This document shows positions 3,767 to 24,515 of a DNA stretch of 64,000 nucleotides, in pieces. This DNA is from Synechococcus sp. UW179A (GTDB lineage: Bacteria > Cyanobacteriota > Cyanobacteriia > PCC-6307 > Cyanobiaceae). The DNA lies in assembly GCF_900473965.1 (NCBI RefSeq), contig NZ_UCNJ01000012.1:248001-312000 (forward strand), written 5' to 3'. The notes beneath the pieces are model-generated. The model was given only the letters and a program-made list of their open reading frames with translations. It ran no database searches and was not told where the DNA came from. A program made the translations under genes and the position numbers. Positions within the stretch are counted from its first letter, which is position 1. Each line of letters opens with the position of its first letter.

Positions 3767-5463
3767 TGGCCGACGTTCACGTTGCGCTCGATCTCCGCGT
3801 TCCTGCTTCACAGCTTCTCTGGGTCGAGCTCCGCTGGAGTCCCACCCAACCGCGGCAGACCTGGACTCTGCCTGTGTGGACCCCTGGTTCTTACACCGTC
3901 AGGGATCCCTCCCAGCATCTTCACAGCCTCTCCGTTGAGCAGGCCGGTCAGACCCTGGTTGCCCGTCGCCGATCACCGGAGACATGGGAGCTGGAGTGCC
4001 GTGTTTCAGAACCGATCACGTTGCGTTACGCACTGGAAGCGAGGCAGCTGACCGTCCGCACTAATCACGTCGATCCGCTGTTCGCATCACTCTGCCTTTC
4101 CGCAGTGGTGATGTTGGTGGAGGGGCAGCGCTGGAATCAACACCTGTTGCAGGTGTTGCTCCCCACCGCCTGGTCAGTGGTTTGTCCGTTGCCACAGAAC
4201 AACGGTTTCTTTCTGGCCGAAGACTTCGACCATCTTGTCGACGCACCTGTCCATGCCGGCGAGCTTCATGTCGAAACGCTGAGAGTGAGGGAGGTCTCTC
4301 ATGAACTGGTGTTGATTGGCACTCCGCCTGCTGGCTGGTCGAGCACGCTGCCAGCGGAGATCGAATCTATCTGTGCGGCGGTCTGCGCTCTGATGGACTC
4401 TGACCCGCCTTCTCAACAGCCTTATCAGCTAGTCCTGCAATTGTTGGATCAGGGTTACGGAGGCTTGGAGCACGACAACTCCTCAGTAATGCAGTTCCCT
4501 TGGACACGCTTACTGGAGGAAGGAGGAACCAGGAGTTTGTTGCAGCTGATCGGCCATGAATATCTGCATCAGTGGAACGTTCGACGACTTCGACCGAGCG
4601 AATACGTTCCCTACCGCTACGACAAGCCCGTGATTAGTGAGGGCCTTTGGTTCGCTGAAGGCATCACCAGTTATTTCGACCTTGCTCTGCCCCTGCTTTC
4701 AGGATTTTCCAGCCGTCTGGATCTGCTCGAGGATCTGGCCGCAGATCTCTCGCACGTGCTTCTCAATCCAGGGACCCGCATCCAGTCTCTCGCCGACAGC
4801 TCTCGGGAGGCCTGGGTTCGCCTCTACAAACAATCCCCTGCCAATGCCCGCAGTCAGATCAGTTACTACAAGCTGGGAACCGCATTGGCCTTCTGTCTTG
4901 ATGTACGCCTGCGTCAGGCGGGTGGATCCCTGGCTCGAAGCCTGCGTCTGCTGTGGTCACAACTCGGTATCCATGGCAGGGGGTACACGCGCCAGGAACT
5001 GATGGATGTCATCGGTTCCACCTCGCCTGAACTGGCTTCCCAGCTCCACACCTGGCTGGATGACTGCGACTCGATACCGGTCGAGTCCTGTCTGAAAGCA
5101 CTGGGCCTCCAGCTCGAGCCGGTGATGGCAACTCATCCCGATGCGGGATGGATACTGCGTGAAAAAGAGGGAAGTGTCTGGATTGATCGCACGGTGTCGT
5201 CTGGGGCAGCTGAATCTGCTGGCCTGGTCCCCGGTGATGAATTGCTGGCCATCAGGAACTGGCGTTGCCGAAACCTGCAACGAAGCCAGCAGCTGCTGCA
5301 TGGTGCTGATGAATGTCAGGTGTTCTACAGCCGACGTGGCCAGATCGATAGCACGGAGCTATCCCTGAAGAAGGCCGGGGTGGAACGCCACCGATTGGCC
5401 TGGGACCCTGGTGCGACCAGGGAGGCTCGTTTGCTCCGCGATCAATGGTTCCAGATCATCTGA
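3766..5463 (+). CDS. M61-family metallopeptidase with C-terminal PDZ domain
   Basis: 565-residue protein of the glycyl-aminopeptidase (M61) family. The zinc site is clear: HEYLH at residues 264-268, then WFAEGITSYF with the likely third ligand Glu at 298. The N-terminal half is a beta-rich region with WTPGSYTVRD, characteristic of M61. Residues from about 455 to 550 form a PDZ-like domain (GWILREKEGSV, SAGLVPGDELLAI). No signal peptide is evident, so location is uncertain. It is coupled to ycf35 upstream by TGATG and overlaps the following amidase gene by 19 bp, suggesting one transcript. Substrate unknown. Confidence 0.87.
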   Translation: MADVHVALDLRVPASQLLWVELRWSPTQPRQTWTLPVWTPGSYTVRDPSQHLHSLSVEQAGQTLVARRRSPETWELECRVSEPITLRYALEARQLTVRTNHVDPLFASLCLSAVVMLVEGQRWNQHLLQVLLPTAWSVVCPLPQNNGFFLAEDFDHLVDAPVHAGELHVETLRVREVSHELVLIGTPPAGWSSTLPAEIESICAAVCALMDSDPPSQQPYQLVLQLLDQGYGGLEHDNSSVMQFPWTRLLEEGGTRSLLQLIGHEYLHQWNVRRLRPSEYVPYRYDKPVISEGLWFAEGITSYFDLALPLLSGFSSRLDLLEDLAADLSHVLLNPGTRIQSLADSSREAWVRLYKQSPANARSQISYYKLGTALAFCLDVRLRQAGGSLARSLRLLWSQLGIHGRGYTRQELMDVIGSTSPELASQLHTWLDDCDSIPVESCLKALGLQLEPVMATHPDAGWILREKEGSVWIDRTVSSGAAESAGLVPGDELLAIRNWRCRNLQRSQQLLHGADECQVFYSRRGQIDSTELSLKKAGVERHRLAWDPGATREARLLRDQWFQII

Positions 5464-18888: not shown

Positions 18889-19382
18889 CGCTGAGGTTGG
18901 TGGAAAGCCGAATTAAAGAACCTCATGAGGTCTTCCGCCACCACCGGAGGAACCATATGTTCAACAGATCCTCCAAAACGGGCCACTTCCTTGACGACGG
19001 AACTGCTGAGAAAGCTGTAGTGAGCTGACGTGCTGAGGAACACCGTCTCAAAATCTGGATCCAGTGATCGATTTGTATGGGCGATTTGCAGCTCGTACTC
19101 GAAGTCGCTCATCGCACGCAGACCCCGCAGGATCAGTCGTGTGCCATTGGACCTGGCGCATTCAACGGTGAGACCATCAAAACTGATCACACTTACATTG
19201 CTGAGATGATCTGTCGAGAGACGGATCTGATGAAGTCGCTCATCCAGCGAGAAGGCTGGAGACTTCCCAGGGTTTTGAAGCACCGCAACAATCAGTTCCT
19301 CTACTAGGGATGATCCGCGTTCGATCAGGTCAAGATGCCCGAGGGTCAGAGGGTCGAAGCTGCCTGGATAGAGCGCCTTCAT
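18885..19382 (-). CDS. coaD: Phosphopantetheine adenylyltransferase
   Basis: Penultimate step of coenzyme A synthesis. The start at ATG 19382 gives [16 protein letters not shown], the standard N-terminus with the (T/H)xGH nucleotidyltransferase motif. A 61-codon upstream extension in frame lacks family character. The [19 protein letters not shown] and [16 protein letters not shown] segments are diagnostic. Length of 165 residues is normal. It is divergent from uvrC (62 bp between starts) and coupled to the coiled-coil gene by an ATGA overlap. Confidence 0.96.
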
Positions 19383-19444
19383 CGCGACAACCTCAGCGGG
19401 TGCTGGCCGGATCCTATGCACAACAGCATCCCTAGATTCTCGGC

Positions 19445-21403
19445 ATGCCCACCCTGCTCGAGCAACCGGACCGCCTGGAACGTCGGCTGAAGGAAATCCC
19501 GACCGAACCCGGTTGTTACCTGATGCGAGACGCCGAGGATCGTTTGCTGTACGTGGGCAAGTCAAAGAGCTTGCGTAGCCGGGTGCGCAGCTATTTCCGC
19601 AGCCGACACGATCTGAGCCCGCGCATCCGCTTGATGGTGCGTCAGATCAGTGAGATCGAGTTCATCGTGACCGACAGCGAGGCGGAGGCACTCGCGCTGG
19701 AATCCAATCTGATCAAGAACCAGCAGCCGCATTTCAATGTGCTGCTGAAGGATGACAAGAAATATCCCTATCTCTGCATCACCTGGAGTGAGGCCTATCC
19801 GAGAATTTTCATCACGCGGCGTCGACGCTTTCGCAGTCCGTTGGATCGCTTCTACGGCCCCTATGTCGATGTGGGTCTGCTGAGAAGGACGCTGTTCCTT
19901 GTGAAGCGAGTGTTCCCACTCAGACAACGCCCCAGGCCTCTGCATCAGGACCGCACCTGCCTGAACTACAACATCGGACGTTGTCCTGGTGTCTGCCAGG
20001 AGCAAATCAGTTCAGAGGACTACCACCGCACGCTGCGCAAGGTGGCGATGGTGTTTCAGGGGCGAAGTGATGAGCTTCAGAAACTCCTCCATCAACAGAT
20101 GGACCGCTACGCCGAGCGTCTGGATTTCGAAGCAGCCGCGAAAGTGCGTGATCAGCTCAAAGGCCTCGATCAACTCACTGCGGATCAGAAGATGAGCTTG
20201 CCTGATGCCTCCGTCAGCCGTGATGTGATTGCCATGGCGGCCGATGAACGGCTGGCCGCCGTTCAGTTATTTCAAATGCGGGCCGGCAAGCTGGTCGGTC
20301 GACTTGGATATATGGCTGACGCCTCTAATCAGAATCCCGGACAAATCCTGCAGCGGGTGATTGAGGAGCATTACAGCCAAGTGGACGCGGTTGAAATACC
20401 GCCTGAATTGCTGGTTCAGCATCCACTTCTCCAACAAGCTCTGCTTGAGGAGTGGCTGACGGAACAGCGCGAACGCAAGGTTCAGATTCACTGCCCGAAG
20501 CAGCGTCAGAAAGCAGATCTGATTGAACTGGTTCAACGCAATGCCGACTATGAGCTCCAACGGGCGAAACAGGGTCAGGAGCAGCAGGCTCTCGCGACCG
20601 AGGATCTGGCTCAGCTTTTGGAGCTGCCCTCGCCGCCTCGACGGATTGAGGGCTATGACATCAGTCACATTCAGGGCAGCGATGCGGTTGCATCTCAGGT
20701 GGTATTCATTGATGGCCTACCCGCCAAGCAGCACTACCGCAAATACAAGATCCGCAGCAGCAGCATCAGGTCTGGGCACAGCGATGACTTCATGGCTATG
20801 GCTGAAATCATGCGGCGCCGCTTTCGCCGCTGGGCTCGTGCCAAGGCTGAAGGCGTTGATGTTGGAGCCCTGCGTCATAGGGGGGGAAGTGCATTGCAAA
20901 CCGATGGTCTTAACGACTGGCCAGATGTGGTGATGATTGATGGTGGAAAAGGTCAGCTTTCTGCGGTGATGGAAGCTCTCAGAGAGCTGGACCTCCAAGA
21001 GGATCTCAACGTCTGCTCACTGGCTAAGCAGCGGGAGGAAATCTTTCTGCCAGGTGAAAGTGATCCGCTGGAGAGTGAACCCGATCAGCTCGGAGTGGCT
21101 CTGTTGCGTCGTCTTCGCGATGAAGCTCACCGCTTTGCCGTGAGCTTCCATCGACAGCAGAGGGGTGAGCGGATGAAACGCTCCCGACTGTCTGACATTC
21201 CCGGCGTGGGTCCAAAACGGGTGAAGGATCTGTTGGCCCATTTCCATTCCATCGATGCCATTCAGTTGGCATCGGTGCAGGCCCTCGCACAGGCGCCTGG
21301 TGTCGGTTTGGCGCTGGCCCGAGATATCCATCGCTTCTTTCATCCTGATCAGGATCCAGAGCAGGATGGGCAGATTCAAGACCAGGGCTCTCCCACACCA
21401 TGA
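19445..21403 (+). CDS. uvrC: Excinuclease ABC subunit C
   Basis: Dual-incision nuclease of nucleotide excision repair, 652 residues. The GIY-YIG domain is at the N-terminus ([20 protein letters not shown]). A cysteine-containing segment ([13 protein letters not shown]) follows near residue 175. The UVR motif is [14 protein letters not shown] near residue 225. The RNase H-like nuclease is next ([14 protein letters not shown]), then tandem helix-hairpin-helix motifs near the C-terminus ([26 protein letters not shown]). The last codons overlap the next ATG (ATGA). Confidence 0.97.
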
Positions 21404-21699
21404 TCCGTGCTTTCACACTGGCCGCACTGGTGATGGGTCTAGTGATCGGCTTGATATCACCCGCAACGGTTGAGGCCTCACCGGGGCTCTGCACAGGGCC
21501 AGTCTGTGCGGATGACATCACACGCAGTGCCAAGAATCACTGGCAGCTCGTGCTCAAACTCAACGACCAGTTGGGCCATAGAGAAAAGGTTGTGATGAAC
21601 TGCCGAGCTGGTCAGCTCAGCCCCATGTCAGGCCCGGTGGACAGGGCCTATGCCACATCCATCGGACGACGTGCATGTCGTCTGGCCGGGGAGGGCTGA
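21400..21699 (+). CDS. Small secreted protein, function unknown
   Basis: 99 residues with a signal peptide ([23 protein letters not shown]) probably cleaved after VEA. The mature part has four cysteines ([25 protein letters not shown]) that could form two disulfides. Start ATG overlaps the uvrC stop, and the photolyase GTG follows 2 bp after its stop, so it is embedded between two DNA-repair genes. No family recognised. Confidence 0.7.
21688..21695 (+). promoter_or_regulatory. Ribosome binding site for the photolyase gene
   Basis: GGGGAGGG lies 6 bases before GTG 21702 and fixes the photolyase start there rather than at an earlier in-frame ATG at 21675, which lies inside the upstream gene. 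Confidence 0.65.
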
Positions 21700-21701
21700 G
21701 G

Positions 21702-23189
21702 GTGGATCTCACCGTCATCTATCCGAATCAGCTGTTTGCCGAGCATCCCAGCCTGCAACCAGGCAGGCCTGTGGCCCTGATTGAGGATCCGCTCTTCTTC
21801 GGTACAGATCCGCGCTGGCCGATGCAGGTGCACCGTCAGCGTCTGCTGCTGCATCGATGTTCCCTATCTGTTTATGCAGAAGGCCTGCGAGGACGCGGCT
21901 TTACTGTTCTGGAACGACGTCACCACCAAGCCAAAGACACACAGGGGCATCTCCAGGCTCTCTTTGACATGGGATACAGGCATATCCATCTGGCGGATCC
22001 TGTTGACGATGTGCTGAGCAAACGACTGCATCAATTTGCACAGCGGAACGGCTGCAACGTCGAGATCAGCTCAACTCCGATGTTGCTGACGCCGGATTCG
22101 GTGATCAATGAGCACTTCATCGCAGGACGCAAGCCGCTGATGGCCAAGTTCTATGAGATGCAGCGCAAACGTTTGAATATTCTCCTCGAGACCGATGGCG
22201 CTCCCGTTGGCGGTCGTTGGAGTTTTGATGCCGACAACCGCAAAAAGCTGCCAAAAGGAATCGTTGTTCCTCAAGAACCGAAAGCCTGCTCCGCTGCTGT
22301 TGTGGATCGGTCGCGGAAGCAGCTGGAACAGGAAAATCTGCCGCTGATCGGTCAGTGGGATCTGTTCGCCTATCCGCTTGACCATGAGTCCGCAGAAGCT
22401 TGGCTGCAGGACTTTCTCAACCAGCGATTACGAGATTTTGGCGCTTATGAGGATGCCATCAGCACACAGCATCGGGTGATGTGGCACAGCGTGCTCACAC
22501 CGATGCTCAATATTGGTCTGTTGACACCTCAGCAGGTTCTCGACCGCACGCTTGAAAGGGCTGCTGAGGGGGATGTGCCGCTCAATTCACTTGAAGGTTT
22601 GATTCGCCAGATCATCGGCTGGCGCGAGTTCATGGCCGCGATGTACAAGCGCCATGGGGTGGAGATGCGCACCGGCAACTTCTGGAACTTCGATGACAGG
22701 TCTATCCCTGAGGCCTTCTACCAGGGCACAACCGGCCTGCCCCCGATCGATGATGCCATCCACCACGCTCTGGACACTGGCTATTGCCATCACATCGAGC
22801 GTTTGATGCTGCTGGGCAATGTGATGCTGCTTTGCGGCTTTCATCCCAATCGTGTTTACCGCTGGTTCATGGAGCTGTTTGTGGACGCCTACGACTGGGT
22901 GATGGTCCCGAATGTGTATGGCATGAGTCAATTCGCTGATGGAGGCCTGTTCTCGACCAAGCCGTATCTCTCGGGTTCGAATTACGTGCGCAAGATGTCG
23001 GATTACCGCAAAGGAGAGTGGTGCGAGATCTGGGATGGACTGTTCTGGAGTTTCATCAAGACACACGAGGAGTTCTTCCGTGGCCAGTTCCGGTTGGCAA
23101 TGATGGCGCGCAACCTGGACCGTATGGATCCGGAGGTGTTGGTCGCTCATCAGCGCCGGGCTGACGGATTCCTTGACTCGATGACCTGA
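21702..23189 (+). CDS. Cryptochrome/photolyase, FeS-BCP (prokaryotic 6-4 photolyase) type, cluster ligands apparently lost
   Basis: 495-residue FAD photoenzyme, expected to repair UV photoproducts. The N-terminus VDLTVIYPNQLF and LIEDPLFF, the loop QHRVMWHSVLTPMLNIGLL, IRQIIGWREFM, NFWNFDDRS, PNVYGMSQFADGG and AMMARNLDRM place it in the FeS-BCP group and not in the classical CPD class I. In characterised members four cysteines hold a 4Fe-4S cluster, two of them in DYCKGC. Here that site reads SDYRKGEWCEIW. Only a cysteine at residue 362 (TGYCHH) and one at 441 are near the expected positions, and the loop is shortened. It starts 2 bp after the secreted-protein gene. Confidence 0.85.
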   Translation: MDLTVIYPNQLFAEHPSLQPGRPVALIEDPLFFGTDPRWPMQVHRQRLLLHRCSLSVYAEGLRGRGFTVLERRHHQAKDTQGHLQALFDMGYRHIHLADPVDDVLSKRLHQFAQRNGCNVEISSTPMLLTPDSVINEHFIAGRKPLMAKFYEMQRKRLNILLETDGAPVGGRWSFDADNRKKLPKGIVVPQEPKACSAAVVDRSRKQLEQENLPLIGQWDLFAYPLDHESAEAWLQDFLNQRLRDFGAYEDAISTQHRVMWHSVLTPMLNIGLLTPQQVLDRTLERAAEGDVPLNSLEGLIRQIIGWREFMAAMYKRHGVEMRTGNFWNFDDRSIPEAFYQGTTGLPPIDDAIHHALDTGYCHHIERLMLLGNVMLLCGFHPNRVYRWFMELFVDAYDWVMVPNVYGMSQFADGGLFSTKPYLSGSNYVRKMSDYRKGEWCEIWDGLFWSFIKTHEEFFRGQFRLAMMARNLDRMDPEVLVAHQRRADGFLDSMT

Positions 23190-23224
23190 ACCCTGTTTAT
23201 GGTCAATTCATACCGTTCCTTGTG

Positions 23225-23869
23225 ATGTCGCTTCCCCCTGAGGCCTATCTCTGGTTCAAAACACTGCACATCGTTGGTGTGGTGGTTTGGTTTGCAGGCC
23301 TCTTCTATCTCGTGAGGCTGTTCATCTATCACGTGGAGGCGAAAGAGCTGGAACCCGAGCTGCGCGGGCCGTTCCAGCAGCAATACAGCTTGATGGAGAA
23401 ACGCCTTGCCAACATCATCACGACCCCAGGGATGGTGGTCGCGGTTTCGATGGCGATCTGTTTGCTGATTGCCCAGCCTGCCTGGCTTCAGCAGGGCTGG
23501 ATGCACGCCAAGCTTGCTTTTGTGGCAGCTTTGCTGGCTTATCACGCGTTCTGCTACCGGGTGATGGCTCAGTTGCAGGCCGGCACGTTCAACTGGAATG
23601 GAAAACAGTTGAGGGCCCTGAATGAGCTGCCGACGTTGCTGCTGGTGATCGTGGTGATGCTGGTGGTGTTCAAGACCCAGTTCCCCACCAGTGCTGCCAC
23701 CTGGTTCATCGTTGCGCTGGTGGTGTTCATGGCGGGCTCGATTCAGTTTTATGCTCGCTGGCGCCGGCTTCGTGCTGAGGCCGCTGCCCTTGAAGCTGCA
23801 GCGATCAATGCCGCTGGTAATGCTGCTGGAAATGAAGCCTCCTCCACAGAGGCTTCCCATGCCGGCTGA
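23225..23869 (+). CDS. hemJ: Protoporphyrinogen IX oxidase HemJ
   Basis: Membrane oxidase converting protoporphyrinogen IX to protoporphyrin IX for heme and chlorophyll. 214 residues with four hydrophobic segments, beginning YLWFKTLHIVGVVVWFAGLF, where the His is a likely heme ligand. EKRLANIITTPGMVVA and WMHAKLAF are typical. A tail of about 40 residues rich in Ala, Gly and Ser follows the last helix. The ATG at 23225 follows an in-frame GTG by one codon. The 3' end overlaps the PHP gene by about 11 bp. Confidence 0.9.
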   Translation: MSLPPEAYLWFKTLHIVGVVVWFAGLFYLVRLFIYHVEAKELEPELRGPFQQQYSLMEKRLANIITTPGMVVAVSMAICLLIAQPAWLQQGWMHAKLAFVAALLAYHAFCYRVMAQLQAGTFNWNGKQLRALNELPTLLLVIVVMLVVFKTQFPTSAATWFIVALVVFMAGSIQFYARWRRLRAEAAALEAAAINAAGNAAGNEASSTEASHAG

Positions 23870-24515
23870 TCACCATCCGCTGAGGTCTGTCCTGGAGACA
23901 GTTGGACCCGACAGCTGTCCAGGTGAGTTCAATTTTCATTGCCATACCCTCTGCAGTGACGGGAGTCTTGAACCTCTTGCTCTGATCCGGCAGGCGTCCG
24001 CCAAGGGACTCACTCAACTGGCTGTGACCGATCACCATTCCAGTGCGTCCTTCCTACCCATGCAGGACTGGCTCAAAGAGCAGCGTGATCTTGGAGAGAC
24101 GGTTCCGACTCTCTGGAGTGGCATGGAAATTAGTGCAATCATGCGCGGTTGCCTGGTCCACGTTCTTGCACTCGGTTTCGAACCTGCCCACAGGTCACTC
24201 GCTGTTTACAACCACGGTGATGCCGCTGTCGGTGAAGCTCTCAGAGCTGAGAGCGTCTGTAAGGCGATTCATGAGGCAGGAGGTTTAGCGATTCTTGCCC
24301 ATCCAGGCCGCTACAGAGTCGGCTTCGCTGACTTGATTGATGCCGCTGCAGAACTTGGGTTTGATGGTGGTGAAGCCTGGTACGACTACGACATGCAACC
24401 ACGTTGGAGCTGGTCTCCTTTGGTCTGCGAAGCCATTGATCGCCGCTTGAAGAACCTTGGCCTTTTGCGTACGTGTGGAACAGACAGCCACGGCTTGGAC
24501 CTTGAAGGTCGCTAA
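23859..24515 (+). CDS. PHP-domain phosphoesterase
   Basis: 218 residues. The metal-binding motifs of the PHP family are complete: FNFHCHTLCSDG (HxH), LAVTDHHS (Asp-His), WSGMEIS, AHPGR and TCGTDSHG. It resembles the single-domain members related to nucleoside 3',5'-bisphosphate phosphatase and RNase AM; the substrate cannot be told. ATG 23859 (MPADHHPL) is chosen; an ATG at 23832 is also in frame. Both overlap the end of hemJ, so the two are co-translated. Confidence 0.82.
   Translation: MPADHHPLRSVLETVGPDSCPGEFNFHCHTLCSDGSLEPLALIRQASAKGLTQLAVTDHHSSASFLPMQDWLKEQRDLGETVPTLWSGMEISAIMRGCLVHVLALGFEPAHRSLAVYNHGDAAVGEALRAESVCKAIHEAGGLAILAHPGRYRVGFADLIDAAAELGFDGGEAWYDYDMQPRWSWSPLVCEAIDRRLKNLGLLRTCGTDSHGLDLEGR

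Follow-up and report, generated by a model that had tools for sequence, protein, structure and literature searches.

The window analysed here, a 64,000-nt stretch of the genome of Synechococcus sp. UW179A, carries on its forward strand a predicted cluster-free prokaryotic (6-4) photolyase of the subgroup M, Phr2/PromaPL type (positions 21702–23189), with 495 residues counted from a GTG codon. An alternative in-frame ATG at 21675 gives the 504-residue frame P0001, whose numbering we use throughout; residue numbers in the earlier sequence-only reading of this DNA equal those of P0001 minus 9. Judging from the start codons and upstream stops of relatives, GTG 21702 is probably the right start: all 21 loci compared from the two nearest genera, the window's own among them, have ATG, GTG or TTG at its place, and 12 of these loci carry an in-frame stop 0–5 codons 5' of it. 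For the homologues in our alignments a fixed rule placed each start close to where it was expected, and the resulting lengths are no evidence about starts. The 5' flank is formed by a plus-strand gene (19445–21403) that we, like the earlier reading, take to be uvrC, and between it and the photolyase lies a 99-residue ORF, orf99 (21400–21699, plus strand), which overlaps uvrC by 4 nt and has no match in Pfam or NCBIfam. A hemJ-like gene (23225–23869, plus strand; TIGR00701, 164.5 bits against a cut-off of 138.05) forms the 3' flank. The full order is coaD-like (minus strand), uvrC, orf99, photolyase, hemJ-like, PHP-like ORF, orf185 and cobN-like (minus strand), where coaD-like, PHP-like and cobN-like are presumptive names. 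The shared strand, the overlap of uvrC with orf99 and the order kept in relatives are consistent with cotranscription of the photolyase with uvrC, which had been stated as a fact and as such is not supported. No sigma-70-like site was detected in 19200–24000, a result that says little because only 1.5 would be expected by chance.

The domain content of the protein is that of the prokaryotic 6-4 photolyases (PhrB-like, DPRP), with matches to both PF04244 (DPRP; 148.3 bits, cut-off 22.1) and the photolyase FAD domain PF03441 (30.3 bits, cut-off 27). Its best matches in the PDB are to PhrB (E about 1e-73), and the eight distinct PDB sequences found comprise PhrB and two of its mutants, a Vibrio enzyme, a Caulobacter enzyme and one mutant, the S. 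elongatus enzyme and CryB. Structure modelling, one of the checks proposed at the outset, predicts the fold of the PhrB group: an AlphaFold2 model built from 55 sequences (mean pLDDT 94.6, pTM 0.93) has 4dja (PhrB) as its best PDB match (Z 48.9, rmsd 1.9 over 485 residues), and Foldseek also ranked the PhrB group first. Placement among the CPD photolyases (class I or class II) by fold failed, as the PhrB group is far closer (Z 43.5–48.9, compared with 29.7 for the first structure outside it). Four orthologues from the window's own genus (L110–L113, in genomes G075, G101, G123 and G034) are about 27 residues shorter and lack the linker near window residues 203–233. Over residues 1–160 they are on average 34–51% identical to the window protein, and over residues 161–200 and 241–480 they reach 72–92%.

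Mapping the four cysteine columns against PhrB and other homologues, also proposed as a check, showed that none of the four is conserved in the window protein. In a MAFFT alignment the PhrB cluster cysteines C350, C438, C441 and C454 correspond to Pro357, a deletion, a second deletion and Glu451. The protein therefore falls outside the FeS-BCPs, which carry cysteine at all of PhrB 350, 438, 441 and 454, and its original assignment to that group stands only as far as the PhrB family, to which PF04244 and the PDB matches tie it. The main proposal, that this is a photolyase of the PhrB type lacking a 4Fe-4S site, was borne out, with zero of four cysteines in the alignment with PhrB, as was the remark that the CxxC loop is shorter than in cluster-type members. 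The shortened cluster loop, SDYRKGEWCEIWDGLFW (22998–23048, plus strand), has the CxxC pair inside its deletion and counts 14 residues against 24 in PhrB (PhrB 437–460), 10 fewer. With its ligands missing, the window protein would contain no 4Fe-4S cluster. Two cysteines had been proposed as remnants of the site, C362 and C441 in the earlier numbering. We reject both, since neither stands on a cluster column: C362 (Cys371, in GYCHHI) aligns with PhrB Ala364 and not with C350, and C441 (Cys450, in EWC) lies one column before C454, where the window protein has Glu451.

This pattern extends to the homologues. We gathered 188 distinct ones and set aside a 200-residue fragment (L109), leaving 187. 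Searching 151 family genomes gave 30 loci and afterwards 40 selected regions, and searching 386 genomes from across the phylum added 18 new loci and afterwards 20 selected regions; from a search of other bacteria with a cluster-free alignment, the best 80 of 588 confirmed loci were taken. All 37 FeS-type proteins have the four cysteines, all 150 M-type proteins have none of them, and not one of the 187 full-length homologues gathered has one to three. The stretch equivalent to PhrB 437–460 measures 24 residues in 36 FeS-type proteins and 29 in one; in M-type proteins it measures 14 (145 proteins) or 17 (five proteins). The 37 FeS-type proteins all come from the window's phylum, the outside references being PhrB and the Vibrio enzyme only. 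Likewise, the absence of the cysteines from 80 of 80 loci of other bacteria (the best 80 of 588) gives no estimate of frequency, because the query was itself a cluster-free alignment. The five proteins L145, L146, L160, L162 and L206 have Trp at the PhrB C438 column together with the intermediate 17-residue loop, and they form a sub-branch of four actinobacterial strains and one Saccharibacteria MAG.

It might be supposed that a cluster is still bound through other ligands, such as Cys371, Cys387 and Cys450, and the presence of Cys450 in 115 of 150 M-type proteins and of Cys387 in 130 of 150 speaks for this. However, Cys450 is replaced in the other 35 by Gln, Asp, Glu, Ser and others and is thus not required, and only 60 of 150 have Cys371. 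In addition, Cys371 and Cys387 flank a 14-residue helix (373–386), which by an estimate from helix geometry would hold them roughly 20 A apart. We regard a cluster with alternative ligands as very improbable.

The relationships among these proteins were examined in a tree of 68 sequences from which the cluster columns were left out (a quick search with SH-aLRT support only and no outgroup, in which 40 rows deviate in letter make-up). One branch (SH-aLRT 100; one change) divides cluster-free from cluster-type proteins. The tree is unrooted and does not tell cluster gain from cluster loss, and an ancestral cluster rests on the PriL argument made in the introduction of PMC4619345. Lying outside the FeS clade and carrying none of the four cysteines, the window protein belongs to subgroup M as these two features define it. 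It groups with L010 and L011 (97), which are Prochlorococcus-like (this label and Cyanobium-like were assigned in the present analysis); genomes of this kind represent PromaPL in the tree. The group is joined by L170, from an uncultured bacterium (96), which is the nearest row outside the family and 52% identical to the window protein, rows of other bacteria being drawn from the best 80 of 588 loci. A 23-row clade (100) unites the window protein with Bacteroidota, Planctomycetota, Ignavibacteriota, candidate phyla and the cyanobacterial L090 and L092, and the cluster-free branch as a whole spans many phyla, SAR11 being among its members in the best 80 of 588 loci. The cluster-free enzyme of the Cyanobium-like L023 groups with L148 of Bdellovibrionota (95), and the family's four-Cys proteins group with those of other cyanobacteria. 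A single common acquisition of the family's cluster-free genes, considered as a candidate history, is unsupported: forcing L002, L010, L011 and L023 together was rejected (p-AU 0.004).

The position of the gene adds a second line of evidence. All 13 M-type loci of the two nearest genera that were fetched with 11 kb of context have uvrC upstream and hemJ downstream by tblastn with the window's proteins (14 of 14 with the window), and these represent 14 of the 21 M-type genomes known to us from those genera. The gap from the uvrC match to the photolyase match is 275–401 bp. An FeS-type enzyme sits between the same uvrC and hemJ in 16 of 23 FeS loci of the family, with one flank present at five others (L061, L063, L064, L069 and L070) and neither at two (L062 and L067). 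The uvrC gap is 201–830 bp in 13 of the 16 FeS slots and 1.8–3.1 kb in L050, L051 and L053, where other sequence may lie between. Relatives of orf99 adjoin uvrC in FeS-slot and M-slot genomes alike. They are also still found beside uvrC at L214–L216, L225 and L226, where the photolyase is gone.

Elsewhere in the family the M-type gene lies away from this slot. None of the slot neighbours was found at seven Prochlorococcus-like and Cyanobium-like loci in a long-context fetch (L121–L127), nor within the stretch fetched at 17 M-type loci (L032–L048). We searched for uvrC in 22 genomes and took the region from 20. Sixteen of the 20 carry an M-type gene elsewhere, and in 15 of these hemJ comes after uvrC with no photolyase match between; in five of five Prochlorococcus-like genomes examined, hemJ likewise follows uvrC without an intervening photolyase, which lies elsewhere. 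In the sixteenth genome (L226, genome G099) no hemJ was detected, and orf99 is followed at a distance of about 5 kb by the M-type gene. The remaining four of the 20 genomes have no DPRP gene; hemJ follows uvrC in three and was not found in L233. In two of the 15, L223 and L224, about 1.8 kb separate uvrC from hemJ, and in the Cyanobium-like L223 the slot holds an ORF on the opposite strand (3957–5411, minus strand) that is presumably glutathione reductase-like. A UvrC tree gathers the M-slot genomes in one group (92) and places the FeS-slot genomes, along with emptied slots, in a group of 26 rows (98); its Prochlorococcus-like rows are long and their placement is unsure. Among the 87 family genomes with a match, 46 were typed by sequence as M (47 loci) and 23 as FeS, the untyped ones having FeS-like identity (11) or fragments or weak matches only (seven). 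Genomes of both kinds occur within each of the genera g6, g31 and g45, and none of the 69 typed family genomes (46 M, 23 FeS) shows both kinds among the matches of the 151-genome search.

Occupation of the same chromosomal slot as the FeS enzyme of related genomes is what one would also see if the resident four-Cys gene had lost its cluster in place by mutation, with no horizontal replacement. Four comparisons count against this history. The window-type proteins are nested in the cross-phylum M branch, within the 23-row clade supported at 100. FeS-type genes of the family are only 31–36% identical to the window protein, compared with 52% for L170. When the protein was divided into 13 blocks, mean identity to the family's FeS-type proteins was below that to the M-type proteins of other bacteria in 12, with a large gap over residues 321–480 and a gap of one point at 201–240; the exception, residues 41–80, favours the family's FeS-type by one point. 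Finally, forcing the FeS-type and window-type rows of the family into a common clade was worse by 310 log units and was rejected (p-AU 2.5e-5), with the test group having been chosen after inspection of the tree. In-place decay is therefore improbable, and since the occupants of the slot belong to different clades, the cluster was most likely lost through a swap of the resident gene for a foreign cluster-free enzyme. The earlier statement that the photolyase has lost its cluster site is right in that the site is absent, but not in implying decay of the window gene, which the tree nests in a cross-phylum cluster-free branch.

The residues at the active site bear on the substrate. All 187 homologues share the PhrB residues D179, R183, D254, H365, H366, R369, L370, Y424 and Y430, and the window protein thus has the (6-4) residues of PhrB, with His372, His373, Tyr431 and Tyr437 at the places of His365, His366, Tyr424 and Tyr430. 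The invariant pair His372-His373 is encoded at 22788–22793 (plus strand), and the PhrB H366A mutant loses repair (PMC4619345). Four places in the window genome match the photolyase FAD domain, and the window protein provides the only His-His at the PhrB 365–366 positions: the Phr4-like gene and a 509-aa frame nearby have HN, and a 501-aa frame on contig 5 has IN. On the basis of these residues, we favour (6-4) repair over CPD repair for the window gene.

A CPD function has been proposed for Phr2 without a cluster in marine Synechococcus (PMC9426592), where it was deduced from the missing cysteines; it is consistent with the UV-B sensitivity of a phr2 mutant of Synechococcus RS9916, whose survival under UV-B was about 1000-fold below the control. 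The same paper predicts (6-4) repair for Phr4/5 from the presence of the cluster residues. However, the invariance of His365-His366, Tyr424 and Tyr430 across all 187 homologues takes no account of the cluster, whereas the genome's other photolyase-family genes carry Asn at the second His. The window enzyme also occupies the slot of a four-Cys enzyme, and the lack of any genome with both kinds among the 69 typed suggests that the two are equal in function. PromaPL belongs to the same branch and is referred to as a (6-4) photolyase (cited in PMC9178010 and PMC9426592), and PMC9426592 itself equates Phr2 with PromaPL, a (6-4) photolyase without a cluster. Nor is the cluster tied to (6-4) repair, as SPL proteins combine a cluster with CPD activity (cited in PMC9649867). 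A CPD role is unlikely in our judgement, and the published labels Phr2 (CPD) and Phr4/5 (6-4), drawn from the presence or absence of the cluster, may be reversed. It is also very unlikely that the protein is mainly a light sensor (cryptochrome) like CryB of R. sphaeroides. CryB is among the homologues and regulates gene expression (cited in PMC9178010), but the repair residues are conserved in all 187, the RS9916 phr2 mutant is UV-sensitive, and E. coli carrying phr2 survives nearly 10-fold better after UV-B and white light (PMC9426592).

Other features of the FAD domain vary. The electron chain is altered in the window protein, with Tyr349 at PhrB W342 and Phe398 at Y391 and with W390 kept; Phe at the Y391 column is usual in both the M-type and the FeS-type sets. 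At the PhrB Glu403 column, Met occurs in all 150 cluster-free proteins and in 34 of the 37 cluster-type ones. In the window protein this residue is Met410 (22902–22904), and the S. elongatus enzyme also has Met (PMC9178010). The title of the S. elongatus structure 8ijy reports covalently linked FAD. Our literature search found no paper on covalent FAD in SePhrB. By analogy, covalent FAD is possible in the cluster-free branch.

Taken together, we consider it likely that the window gene encodes a flavin-dependent (6-4) photolyase, that this enzyme belongs to subgroup M, the cluster-free branch already known, and that it was acquired by replacement within its slot. In the mechanism we propose, FAD in the C-terminal domain, once reduced and excited by blue light, would pass an electron to the (6-4) lesion, which His373 (PhrB His366) would protonate, with Tyr431 and Tyr437 (PhrB Tyr424 and Tyr430) aiding lesion binding and repair. 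A loop 10 residues shorter would take the place of the cluster and make stability independent of iron. Cysteine mutants of PhrB are insoluble or not expressed (PMC4619345), so that life without a cluster should need compensating changes. A ready-made cluster-free gene from another bacterial lineage would have displaced the resident four-Cys enzyme in the order uvrC-orf99-[photolyase]-hemJ. More broadly, we think it likely that the picocyanobacterial slot holds a native four-Cys enzyme, a foreign cluster-free one, or none, with a different cluster-free enzyme elsewhere, and that the cluster was shed at least twice by whole-enzyme exchange, no intermediate having been seen.

The suggestion that a cluster-free enzyme would serve to save iron in a surface-ocean cyanobacterium is unnecessary. 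Surface-ocean lineages (SAR11, SAR86, PS1 and Actinomarina) appear often among the best 80 of 588 loci from other bacteria, but the branch crosses phyla and in the same 80 loci includes strains of Dyadobacter, Chryseobacterium, Microbacterium and Segetibacter, which are not known as surface-ocean organisms. In addition, a photolyase-family gene whose four cysteines follow the Phr4 pattern is retained in the window genome. An iron advantage of the cluster-free enzyme may exist but is not needed as an explanation. The retained gene resembles a split Phr4/Phr5 (L212:1168–2109 and 2113–2541, on contig C18 of the same genome from about 105.9 kb). Its four cysteines lie in the FAD part; its second ORF, of 142 residues and without a Pfam match, begins 3 nt past the TAA of the first in the same frame, and the published Phr4/Phr5 pair is described with seven G-C pairs and a frameshift between the ORFs (PMC9426592).

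As to the antenna, an 8-HDF chromophore like that of SePhrB is unlikely in the window protein, because CofH (FO synthesis, TIGR03551) gave no match at E 0.001 in the window genome, which is 99.97% complete. In a control, 11 of 14 genomes matched TIGR03551, including S. elongatus but also E. coli, so that a match alone proves little. The antenna-site pattern of subgroup M is described as complex and its cofactors as diverse (PMC9178010), and our guess would be DMRL, the riboflavin precursor.

PhrB-type photolyases without a cluster site are real and already known as a kind: subgroup M makes up 20 of 110 sequences in PMC9178010, with PromaPL cluster-free. What is added here is the comparison of loci and the residue argument on substrate. 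A literature search, covering the titles and opening lines of the abstracts of openly accessible papers, found no description of a shared slot or of replacement, and the main text of PMC9426592 contains none of the words horizontal, lateral and replace. The function of the cluster in prokaryotic (6-4) photolyases has been called yet unknown (PMC12082625), and it could not be removed from PhrB by mutation (PMC4619345), yet a large natural branch does without it. A family in which either kind occupies one locus offers a clean comparison of cluster and no cluster in the same operon of related cells. If the exchange is as we propose, the slot would supply naturally matched pairs of enzymes with which to probe the role of the cluster.

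Among the closest known systems is Phr2 of RS9916, a cluster-free PhrB-like enzyme also encoded downstream of uvrC (PMC9426592), which is in all likelihood the direct orthologue of the window protein. Phr2 has been reported from every Synechococcus of subcluster 5.1 and from three of the six Cyanobium strains, in two subclades of which one has the cysteines (PMC9426592). The two interpretations differ in that the absence of the cluster led the authors of the Phr2 paper to predict CPD repair, whereas the residues of the window protein point to (6-4) repair. That paper also states that the cysteines are absent from the Phr2-like protein of Vibrio cholerae, which the sequence of PDB 7ykn, with all four, contradicts. 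PromaPL of Prochlorococcus marinus and subgroup M (PMC9178010) share with the window protein the family and the absence of cluster cysteines; the Prochlorococcus-like L010 and L011 group with it (97), but in the five Prochlorococcus-like genomes examined the gene lies outside the uvrC-hemJ slot. SePhrB of Synechococcus elongatus (PDB 8ijy) is likewise a prokaryotic 6-4 photolyase with Met at the PhrB Glu403 position, but it possesses both a cluster and 8-HDF as its antenna (PMC9178010), in contrast to a window protein without cluster cysteines in a genome without a CofH match. Finally, PhrB of Agrobacterium fabrum (PDB 4dja) and the FeS-BCPs have the fold, the FAD-domain residues and the antenna-domain family in common with the window protein, and differ from it in their four cluster cysteines, a loop 10 residues longer and a separate clade.
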